Shown: in pieces, positions 53,909 to 56,250 of the stretch | Layout of the letters: each line of letters starts with the position of its first letter | Numbering within the stretch: the first letter of the stretch is position 1 | Assembly (NCBI RefSeq): GCF_003946265.1 | Contig: NZ_RHNO01000015.1 | Location: 1-64,000 of the forward strand | Direction of reading: 5' to 3' | DNA length: 64,000 nt | Source of the DNA: Levilactobacillus yonginensis | Lineage (GTDB): Bacteria > Bacillota > Bacilli > Lactobacillales > Lactobacillaceae | The notes under the pieces: model-generated | The model's database searches: none | Told to the model about the DNA's origin: nothing | Seen by the model: only the letters and a program-made list of their open reading frames with translations | Translations under genes and position numbers: made by a program

Positions 53909-53976
53909 TAGTCAAAGACGTTTAAATATGCTATATTAGTTGGTAACAGGGAACTTCGTGTACGCGGAGTTTTTTT
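53909..53976 (+). promoter_or_regulatory. Promoter followed directly by a terminator, upstream of nusG
   Basis: TAGTCA, 17 bases, TGC-TATATT (53932-53937). About 15 bases later comes the hairpin AACTTCGT/GCGGAGTT (53952-53971) with seven T. It ends secE transcripts and would also stop RNA started at this promoter, so it looks like an attenuator for nusG. Confidence 0.6.
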
Positions 53977-54020: not shown

Positions 54021-54572
54021 ATGGTTGAGTCAGCTGAAAAGCAATGGTACGTTCTTCACACCTACGCAGGTTACGAGAACAAAGTTATGGCGAACTTGGA
54101 ATCGCGGGCCGAATCAATGGGGATGCAAGACAACATCTTCCGGGTCGTTGTCCCCGAAGAAGAGGAACACGAAGTTAAGAACGGTAAGGACAAGGTCACA
54201 ATGGAAAAGACCTTCCCTGGCTACGTTTTAGTTGAAATGGTCATGAGTGACCAAGCTTGGTACATTGTGCGGAACACGCCTGGTGTTACTGGGTTCTTGG
54301 GTTCCCATGGACAAGGTAGTAAGCCAACGCCACTCCTGCCAGATGAAGTTGAACGCATCTTACGTCGGGTCGGAATTTCTGCTCGTCACGCTGAGCTGGA
54401 CGTTGCTGTTGGAGATTCAGTAACCATTGTCGACGGTGCCTTCAGTGGCTTAGTTGGGAAGATTACGGAAGTTGACAACGAAAAGATGAAGTTGAAGGTC
54501 AACATCGATATGTTCGGTCGGGAAACGAGTACTGAACTGAACTTTGATCAAGTTGACCCCATCTTAGGTTAA
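54021..54572 (+). CDS. nusG: Transcription termination/antitermination protein NusG
   Basis: 183 residues: NGN domain starting KQWYVLHTYAGYENKV, FPGYVLVEMVM (about 66-76), then a KOW domain VGDSVTIVDGAFSGLVGKI (about 132-150). Links RNA polymerase with ribosome or Rho. ATG after AAAGGAG. Confidence 0.96.
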   Translation: MVESAEKQWYVLHTYAGYENKVMANLESRAESMGMQDNIFRVVVPEEEEHEVKNGKDKVTMEKTFPGYVLVEMVMSDQAWYIVRNTPGVTGFLGSHGQGSKPTPLLPDEVERILRRVGISARHAELDVAVGDSVTIVDGAFSGLVGKITEVDNEKMKLKVNIDMFGRETSTELNFDQVDPILG

Positions 54573-54707
54573 GTTCTTTTGGATGCGTGATGGGAGGCAG
54601 CTTGCCGCTTACAGCCGACAGGAACCACACTGTGGGGACGTTTTAGCCCCAGAGTGGGGAACCCATCCTCGCTAGTGGGTCATTCAGCATCCGGTTGAAA
54701 AGAACTT
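54571..54707 (+). ncRNA. Unassigned structured RNA element between nusG and rplK
   Basis: 137 bases beginning in the nusG stop codon. Outer stem of ten perfect pairs, AAGTTCTTTT (54571-54580) with AAAAGAACTT (54698-54707), continued by GGATGC (54581-54586) with GCATCC (54687-54692). Inner stem GATGGG (54589-54594) with CCCATC (54662-54667); apical stem CCAC-CT-GGGG with CCCC-AG-GTGG (about 54625-54657). ACCCA (54661-54665) can also pair with TGGGT (54676-54680), which excludes the inner stem. No T-run follows. It lies upstream of the rplK promoter. I recognise no Rfam-type family. Confidence 0.65.
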
Positions 54708-54734
54708 GTTGTAGTTAGTAAAGTGTGGTATGAT
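54706..54734 (+). promoter_or_regulatory. Promoter of rplK-rplA
   Basis: TTGTTG, 17 bases, TATGAT. It starts exactly where the structured element ends. Confidence 0.75.
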
Positions 54735-54765
54735 TCTCAAGTATGCGTTAGAGCGTACAGTTAAC

Positions 54766-54799
54766 GTGGGAGGAGCAAACTAACAGCTCCACTTACCAC
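54766..54799 (+). promoter_or_regulatory. Probable L1-binding leader of the rplK operon
   Basis: GTGG (54766-54769) pairs with CCAC (54796-54799) and GGAGC (54772-54776) with GCTCC (54786-54790), leaving an asymmetric internal loop. This shape and place agree with the L1 repressor site known in the L11 operon leader, mimicking the L1 site of 23S rRNA. Confidence 0.55.
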
Positions 54800-54825
54800 A
54801 CACGGACTCAAGGAGGTATTGTCTC

Positions 54826-55251
54826 GTGGCTAAAAAAGTAGCTAATGTCGTCAAATTACAGATTCCTGCGGGTAAAGCAACCCCAGCTCCCCCAGTTGGA
54901 CCAGCTTTAGGTCAAGCAGGTATCAACATCATGGGCTTCACTAAGGAATTCAACGCACGTACAGCTGACCAAGCTGGTATGCTGATTCCTGTTGTGATCA
55001 GTGTCTATGAAGATCGTTCCTTTGATTTCATCACCAAGACCCCTCCAGCAGCTGTTCTGTTGAAGAAGGCCGCTGGTGTTGAAAGTGGTTCTGGCGAACC
55101 TAACACGAAAAAGGTTGCTACGGTAACCAAGGATCAAGTTAAGCAAATCGCTGAAACTAAAATGCAAGATCTAAACGCAGCTGACGTTGAAGCAGCTATG
55201 CGCATGATTGAAGGTACTGCCCGGAGCATGGGCTTCACGGTCGAAGGTTAA
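54826..55251 (+). CDS. rplK: 50S ribosomal protein L11
   Basis: 141 residues, normal length. [40 protein letters not shown] is the textbook N-terminus; it binds the GTPase-centre rRNA. GTG start after AAGGAGG. Confidence 0.97.
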
Positions 55252-55349
55252 GCTCAGTTTTCGGATAGTCGGACACTTCACGAAAATGAAATGTGTCAAG
55301 TGGGAGGTTTATCCGTTACAACCACATTTGCAAGGAGGAATACACAAAA

Positions 55350-56048
55350 ATGGCTCACAAACGAGGTAAAAAGTATCAAGACGCTGCCAAACTGGTCGAG
55401 GCCGACAAGGTCTACACCATGGGCGACGCCGTTGATTTAGTAAAGAAGATGGATTTCGCTAAGTTTGACGCAACTGTTGAAGTTGCCTTCAAGCTTAACG
55501 TTGACACAAAGCAAGCGGACCAACAACTCCGTGGCGCATTGGTATTACCTAATGGTACCGGTAAAGATACTACGGTAATCGTATTCGCTAAGGGTGACCA
55601 AGCTAAGGCTGCTGAAGCAGCTGGTGCTGACGTTGTTGGCGAACAAGACTTAGTAGAACGCATCCAAGACGGCTGGTTGGACTTTGACGTTGCCATTGCA
55701 ACGCCAGACATGATGGCCCAAGTTGGTCGTTTAGGTCGTGTCTTAGGACCTAAGGGCTTGATGCCTAACCCTAAGACGGGTACGGTTACGATGAACGTCG
55801 AAAAAGCCGTTTCCGATGCTAAGAACGGGCAAGTTACTTACCGGACTGACCGGGATGGTAACGTTGCTGTTCCATTTGGTAAGGTTTCCTTTGATGCTGA
55901 CAAGCTTGCCGGTAACTTGAAGACCATTGCTGAAACGATTGTTCGCATTCGTCCAGCTGCTGTACGTGGTACTTACGTACAACACGTTTCAATTTCTTCA
56001 ACGTTCGGCCCTAGCGTCGACGTTGACTTGGCTTCATTATTAGCCTAA
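55350..56048 (+). CDS. rplA: 50S ribosomal protein L1
   Basis: 232 residues starting [17 protein letters not shown]. Motif [23 protein letters not shown] is intact. L1 is also the likely translational repressor of this operon. The frame extends upstream, but AAGGAGG fixes ATG 55350. Confidence 0.97.
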
Positions 56049-56119: not shown

Positions 56120-56250
56120 GTTGTATTTAATAGATCTACCTAAGACTCAGGTGGCCTAATGGTCTTAATTTCCTGCCGAGGAAGAAGTTTACTTAAACTT
56201 TGGACTCCTTATGTCTTGGTGGCATAGGGATTTTTTTATCCCACCAAACT
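56120..56250 (+). promoter_or_regulatory. Ribosomal L10 leader with attenuator
   Basis: The leader holds the L10-leader hallmark segments CCTAAGACTCAGGTGG and TTCCTGCCGAGGAAG, then an intrinsic terminator (CCTTATGTC 56207-56215 with GGCATAGGG 56221-56229, seven T). In this known family L10(L12)4 binding favours termination, giving feedback on rplJL. Confidence 0.85.

Follow-up and report, generated by a model that had tools for sequence, protein, structure and literature searches.

A lineage-specific spacer closed by a conserved, predicted stem between nusG and rplK in Levilactobacillus

The L17 downstream element (RF01708) is a candidate structured RNA of Lactobacillales and Listeria that lies in the 3′ UTR of a ribosomal-protein gene (PMC2864571). 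In Bacillus subtilis, NusG-dependent terminators are characterized by consecutive A-U/G-U pairs at the base of the hairpin, a TTNTTT motif and distal interruptions of the U-tract (PMC8060035). Further structured RNAs belong to the rplK gene cluster itself, namely the L1 site of the rplK leader and the L10 leader (RF00557). We compared with these systems a 137-base element (54571–54707) between nusG and rplK of Levilactobacillus yonginensis, located in a 64,000-nucleotide stretch of contig NZ_RHNO01000015.1 that was analyzed as a whole (the window; all coordinates are window positions on the plus strand). The element resembles the L17 downstream element in being a candidate structured RNA from the same order, but it matches no Rfam model, is limited to one clade and has only its closing stem clearly kept. 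It shares with the B. subtilis terminators an A-U stem base and has beside the stem a motif resembling TTNTTT at five of six positions; unlike them it has a poor U-tract and a very large interior. The L1 site and the L10 leader (56121–56245) both lie downstream of the rplK promoter, whereas the element lies upstream of it, and the leader carrying the L1 site is nearly identical in related species, which the element is not.

In the list of ORFs, nusG occupies 54021–54572 and ends with the stop codon TAA (54570–54572), and rplK (54826–55251) starts with GTG and is present in all 35 genomes of the genus. In a protein search that gave 180 related stretches, the best 80 of which were kept, the nusG product shared 99% identity with its counterparts in L. 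hammesii, L. tongjiangensis and other species. The rplK promoter (54706–54734) was inferred from sequence alone, as a −35 box TTGTTG (54706–54711), a 17-base spacer and an extended −10 element TGGTATGAT (hexamer at 54729–54734), and it is kept with small changes across the genus; an automatic promoter scan picked a different, overlapping hexamer pair (54695–54724). The insert thus delimited comprises 133 bases from the nusG stop to the −35 box. A putative L1-type regulatory stem in the rplK leader (54766–54799), already named in the preliminary description, stands apart from the element. Two neighboring gaps also carry features of their own. Between secE and nusG, a terminator-like hairpin with a T-run (53948–53975) follows a promoter-like site (53909–53937), an arrangement in which nusG may be transcribed from a promoter of its own, with an attenuator-like terminator ahead of its start. 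In the gap between rplK and rplA (55252–55350), the best folding energy was −16.0 or −16.1 in all 21 genus loci scored, a near-constancy that is a sign of strong conservation. This gap contains GTGGGAGG...CCACAT at 55300, possibly a second L1 site of the kind reported for Firmicutes in a review (PMC10931766).

The preliminary description had proposed that the element is built of a ten-pair outer stem, a six-pair second stem, a GATGGG/CCCATC stem and a G/C-rich apical hairpin, all nested in 137 bases, with ACCCA/TGGGT as a competing, switch-like pairing. The two closing stems are borne out. The outer stem, P1, is a perfect ten-pair helix between AAGTTCTTTT (54571–54580), the first two bases of which lie within the nusG stop codon, and AAAAGAACTT (54698–54707), the last two bases of which are the start of the inferred −35 box, so that the element does end at the rplK promoter as described. 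Its pair probabilities range from 0.38 to 1.00, the six middle pairs reaching 0.98–1.00. The second stem, P2 (GGATGC, 54581–54586; GCATCC, 54687–54692), has a pair probability of 0.99 and is followed directly on its 3′ side by a five-base bulge, GGTTG (54693–54697). The inner part was not reproduced: the GATGGG/CCCATC stem (54589–54594/54662–54667) has a pair probability of 0.00 and costs 3 kcal/mol when forced, the predicted fold is a multiloop instead of a single nest, and the ACCCA/TGGGT pairing does not compete with the best fold, since it belongs to that fold itself (probability 0.56–0.73). This hairpin had no counterpart by eye in the best folds of two relatives. As had been observed, no T-run follows the element, and the longest plus-strand ORF inside it has 30 codons (54583–54675).

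Taken as a whole, the segment has a better predicted fold than its dinucleotide shuffles, one of 200 of which was as good (z −3.2). For the sequence between the outer arms, P2 included, the value was z −2.1 (p 0.03), and the 100 bases inside P2 (54587–54686), the variable interior of the insert, showed no structure beyond shuffles (z −0.81, p 0.21), indicating that the excess of structure in the window comes mostly from the two closing stems. The corresponding segments of the two relatives were not unusually structured between the outer arms (z −0.9 and −0.7); inside P2 they gave z −1.7 (L014, p 0.058) and z −0.6 (L096, p 0.25). A perfect ten-pair inverted repeat within 160 bases is by itself not rare: random sequence of the same make-up contained a mean of 11.85 per 64 kb, and the window contains 64, many of which are registers of one longer repeat.

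No Rfam 15 family reached its gathering score in 54571–54707, in agreement with the earlier designation of the element as unassigned, and no match was obtained at E values up to 10 over 54500–54840. The element was undescribed in the literature searched, a coverage that lacks most subscription journals. Six records of a plasmid collection matched 54761–54840 or part of it, which is the rplK leader and start and not the element. The G+C-rich hairpin and U-tract of an intrinsic terminator were not found, and a terminator scan lists none at the element: the base of P1, AAGTTCTTTT/AAAAGAACTT, is followed by GTTGTAG. This base does contain A-U pairs, in line with the consecutive A-U/G-U pairs at the stem base of NusG-dependent terminators, and TTGTTG matches TTNTTT at five of six positions, with interruptions of the U-tract that are proximal as well as distal. 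The element also lacks the position of a ribosomal-protein leader, given that it ends at the inferred rplK −35 box, upstream of the leader; it could still lie within a read-through transcript. Nor was it found in more than one copy, as would be typical of a mobile palindromic repeat, in its own genome or in relatives.

When 35 genomes of the genus were searched at the DNA level, 12 gave a match. In three of these, namely the window's own genome, G028 and G032, the match covered the element; in the other nine it was confined to 23–26 bases on the side of the promoter. The coding sequences of nusG and rplK do not differ between G028 and L. tongjiangensis (L014). A covariance model built from the three inserts yielded only two further hits in the 35 genomes, at L127 (E 0.35) and L126 (E 0.50), and both were taken as chance. 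The three species with the insert form one clade (support 100/100 in a tree without outgroup) inside a wider group with support 93/97, and in their nearest species (enshiensis, koreensis, fujinensis and andaensis) 12 bases separate the stop codon from the −35 box. Among 30 titled loci (L013–L042, 27 of them with a Levilactobacillus species name), nusG–rplK gaps range from 131 to 947 bases. Eight of them have the 131-base gap, with 12 bases before the −35 box and TTTGAAAAGAAC or a variant of it. The 3′ arm sequence AAAAGAACTT occurs in the gap of 20 of the 30, with or without an insert, and the 5′ arm sequence AAGTTCTTTT at the nusG stop is found in L014 alone. Because AAAAGAACTT is widespread and AAGTTCTTTT rare, the 3′ arm belongs to old sequence beside the promoter, and what looks like a gain is the insert with its 5′ arm. 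Since the gain took place in a group whose four other members have 12 bases, the stem is dispensable.

The interior of the insert differs between the window and the two relatives at 37% and 40% of aligned positions: between the outer arms, and with the bulge excluded, the relatives are identical to the window at 62 of 98 and 63 of 105 ungapped positions. They agree with each other at 62 of 92 ungapped insert positions, and the aligned inserts contain long gaps besides. At fourfold sites of 14 upstream genes including nusG, from which repeated genes had been removed by hand, divergence from the window was 489/2049 (24%) for G028 and 582/2027 (29%) for G032, with per-gene ranges of 7–35% and 14–40%, respectively; nusG itself showed 6/83 and 18/83 differences. 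In the 118 bases of rplK promoter and leader that follow (54708–54825), 118 and 117 positions agree with the relatives. A patch that diverges faster than nearby silent sites do on average therefore adjoins one that is almost frozen. Within the insert, the eight 5′-arm bases past the stop, GTTCTTTT, are invariant in all three species. Given that 43 of 92 ungapped interior columns (P2 included) are invariant, the chance of an invariant GTTCTTTT is 0.002 on the assumption of independent columns, a value that should not be pressed, because the interior run TACAGCCG likewise comprises eight invariant columns. The three species also have in common a motif in the middle of the insert, TTACAGCCG(A/G)CAG (54609–54621), the predicted pairing of which differs among them and which is possibly a protein site or a product of chance.

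Compensatory base changes did not rise above background in these three sequences, a number that gives low power; measured against the refutation criterion of the preliminary description, its proposal is not upheld on this point. The outer stem can provide no covariation, because its 11 alignment pairs never vary. P2 keeps five of its six pairs in each relative, four of the six changed cells being G-U, and the predicted interior folds differ among the three species. The RNAalifold structure has 87.8% pairing cells over the three sequences, as against a mean of 85.6% in shuffled columns; four double changes are seen, a number reached in 154 of 500 shuffles, and the covariation term of +1.34 is unfavorable. 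A different group of five loci was examined in the same manner for a helix CTGTCG/CGATAG, which was extended to nine pairs and shows one double change, CTGTTG/CAATAG in L034. A change of this kind was reached in 98 of 500 shuffles and the RNAalifold consensus omits the helix, so that covariation in this group is only suggestive and was not accepted.

Other Levilactobacillus species carry inserts that differ from that of the window, and we scored whether their ends pair. The first 25 bases past the nusG stop were set against the last 25 bases up to the −35 box, or fewer where the segment was short, and compared with shuffled inserts. The sample comprised 21 segments, stop codons excluded, from 11 Levilactobacillus lineages. 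Left out were eight loci with 12 bases, three parabrevis-group loci whose 25-base segments were too short, two loci with long gaps (L039, 622 bases; L042, 947 bases), two with intervening genes (L120 and L122) and loci repeating an included species. With lineages grouped by hand on trees that have many open forks, and each counted once by its geometric mean, end pairing gave a Fisher p of 1.1e-5, or 9.7e-5 when the window's clade was omitted; when each lineage was represented by its worst member, the values were 3.4e-4 and 1.3e-3, respectively. The strongest single signals came from tujiorum (p 0.0005), spicheri (0.0015), the window's clade (0.003–0.027) and the zymae group (0.015–0.127). End pairing was absent in suantsaiihabitans, angrenensis, brevis CD0817, suantsaii, HBUAS51381, tangyuanensis and lindianensis (p 0.46–0.91), and little was seen in brevis ATCC 14869 (p 0.27). 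The zymae group has inserts of 60, 154 and 273 bases that all begin with CCTTTT(T)AGGGTTA and are almost alike where they reach the −35 box. Two control gaps, scored in 13 lineages each by the first version of the test, gave no excess (rplK–rplA, p 0.99; secE–nusG, p 0.26), with two single secE–nusG segments reaching p 0.02 and 0.04; at least rplK–rplA is a weak control for a mutational process, because it is far less variable in appearance. Differing inserts thus tend toward the same closure, as a statistical result and not lineage by lineage.

The same junction was surveyed across the family in 80 regions, four of them from Levilactobacillus. The nusG gene lay inside the stretch in 44 of the 80, and 42 regions were scored for hairpins, L142 being excluded for its long gap. 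A hairpin with a T-run was flagged in four of the 42, namely L195 and all three sampled genomes of genus g3, which we take as Paucilactobacillus since the gap of L198 equals that of L073. In the three g3 loci (L198, L199 and L200), the T-run seen by eye lies in the rplK promoter spacer, where stop and start signals overlap in bases. Because a hairpin and T-run overlapping the rplK promoter by eye are present in three of three, a real terminator is possible at this spot. These terminators resemble the window's element in that a hairpin stands past the nusG stop and ahead of the rplK −10 element, but theirs is short, with six or seven T behind it, whereas the element has no T-run. L172 has a hairpin and T-run by eye and no recognized −10 element, and L167 a 15-pair stem ending beside the −10 element. 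Five loci of g29, g22 and g27 have only 54–63 bases from the nusG stop to the L1 site and no strong hairpin predicted there, the −10 calls being too early in some. Of three sampled genomes of genus g23, L175 carries a separate insert of about 145 bases at the same junction, with a better fold than shuffles (z −3.2), which L173 and L174 do not have.

The nusG–rplK junction is also a site of gene insertion. In L. plantarum, an ORF of 295 residues (L053:2084–2971), alpha/beta hydrolase-like by eye, lies between the two genes; gaps of about 1 kb are found in other Lactiplantibacillus and many Lentilactobacillus loci, of which L053 alone was translated. In L. namurensis (L042:2049–2996), a terminator-like hairpin with a T-run after nusG is followed by two ORFs before rplK, the first helix-turn-helix-like (70 residues) and the second membrane-protein-like, as labeled by eye. 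L120 and L122 contain sequence very similar to the L042 gap.

We tentatively interpret the element as the 3′ untranslated end of the nusG mRNA, a lineage-specific spacer closed by one useful stem, and assign this reading a probability of about 0.45. The closing stem is strongly predicted and conserved in the three insert species, and the interior exceeds mean fourfold divergence; we infer that the usefulness lies in the closing of the stem and not in the sequence enclosed. With its arms at the nusG stop and the rplK −35 box, the stem would be transcribed within nusG read-through RNA, where it would shield the 3′ end of the nusG mRNA from exonucleases, make RNA polymerase pause or leave ahead of the rplK promoter, or both. 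The rplK–rplA genes would then be driven mainly by their own promoter, under L1 control, and neither a ligand nor a switch would be required. The fall from z −3.2 with the outer stem to −0.8 inside P2 speaks for this reading, as do the invariant GTTCTTTT, the end pairing over lineages with its two negative control gaps, the steady insert ends of the zymae group and the g3 hairpins with T-runs. Against it speak the lack of covariation, the dispensability of the stem, the lineages whose insert ends do not pair, the invariant interior run TACAGCCG, the ordinary folding of the relatives between the outer arms, the two single control segments at p 0.02 and 0.04, the A-U-rich base and a U content past the stem that is poor for a terminator. 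Conservation of the 3′ arm is expected regardless, because it is promoter sequence. Of the functions suggested in the preliminary description, a nusG 3′ UTR or processing element is reasonable, with the closing stem kept in two relatives. A defined 137-base regulator with a switch is not supported: interior folds differ, covariation does not exceed that of shuffles, the insert was found in 3 of 35 genomes, and where it would stand the four nearest species have just 12 bases.

The main rival is template switching in an unconstrained spacer, which would leave inverted copies of A-rich promoter-upstream sequence, so that the stem is functionless and the interior drifts. Template switching is reported to create and maintain RNA hairpins (PMC8794818). 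Its appeal lies in an interior that diverges beyond the mean of local fourfold sites, in an insert that is lineage-specific and dispensable, and in a 5′ arm that repeats the widespread AAAAGAACTT exactly in inverted orientation; it accounts also for the pairing ends of differing inserts. On this account, however, the 5′ arm should decay as the interior does, yet eight of its eight bases are the same in three species, and this unchanged arm is the main direct evidence against it. The two control gaps of the same operon, at least one of which (rplK–rplA) is a weak control, also showed no pairing excess, and on balance we regard template switching as somewhat unlikely. A mobile origin shares with it the inverted ends flanking a variable interior and the presence or absence among close species. 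The element would then be the remnant of a small MITE- or REP-like unit with terminal inverted repeats, but the own genome gave one match and one place with AAGTTCTTTT...AAAAGAACTT, the covariance model added only the two weak hits (E 0.35 and 0.50) in 35 genomes, and the right "repeat" is found also in species free of the insert. Being single-copy, the element is scarcely credible as a mobile remnant, and this reading is largely refuted.

The remaining alternatives give the RNA a regulatory role. A hairpin that closes nusG as a weak intrinsic terminator or pause signal, stimulated by NusG or NusA and giving NusG an influence on read-through into rplK–rplA, would fit the A-U-rich base, the five-of-six match of TTGTTG after the stem to TTNTTT, the full match of TTCTTT within the 5′ arm, and the terminators at the same spot in the g3 genomes sampled. 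We nevertheless consider it quite unlikely: the nine bases past the stem (54708–54716) contain five U, with interruptions near the stem too, TTGTTG is already accounted for as the −35 box, the terminator scan is empty at the element, and the hairpin is absent from lineages without the insert. A novel cis-regulator that has a definite fold or a switch, as the preliminary description proposed, would agree with the lack of an Rfam match and with the TTACAGCCG(A/G)CAG motif common to three species; against this, the interior folds are unlike in the three, the double changes are matched by 154 of 500 shuffles with a covariation term of +1.34, and, being upstream of the inferred promoter, the element is not in the rplK leader made from it. 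Such a regulator appears highly improbable.

As a whole, the element is real but modest, a fast-changing spacer with a conserved closing stem, and a riboswitch-like regulator is unsupported at present. A more far-reaching combination, in which a NusG-responsive pause or weak terminator in the window's clade would join a repeatedly evolved, "sequence-free" closing stem and NusG would tune read-through into the L11-L1 genes, seems to us very unlikely. If template switching is the right explanation, a good fold z-score in a fast-changing spacer need not signal function. The interest of the locus lies in the recurrence of closing stems at the nusG–rplK junction, a statistical result. Should the reading as the closed 3′ end of the nusG mRNA be true, selection would maintain the closure of a hairpin between genes and tolerate turnover of its sequence, length and inner fold, and elements of this kind would escape covariation searches; it would also be relevant to the question of how nusG stays separate from the L11-L1 operon when the two have no classical terminator between them.
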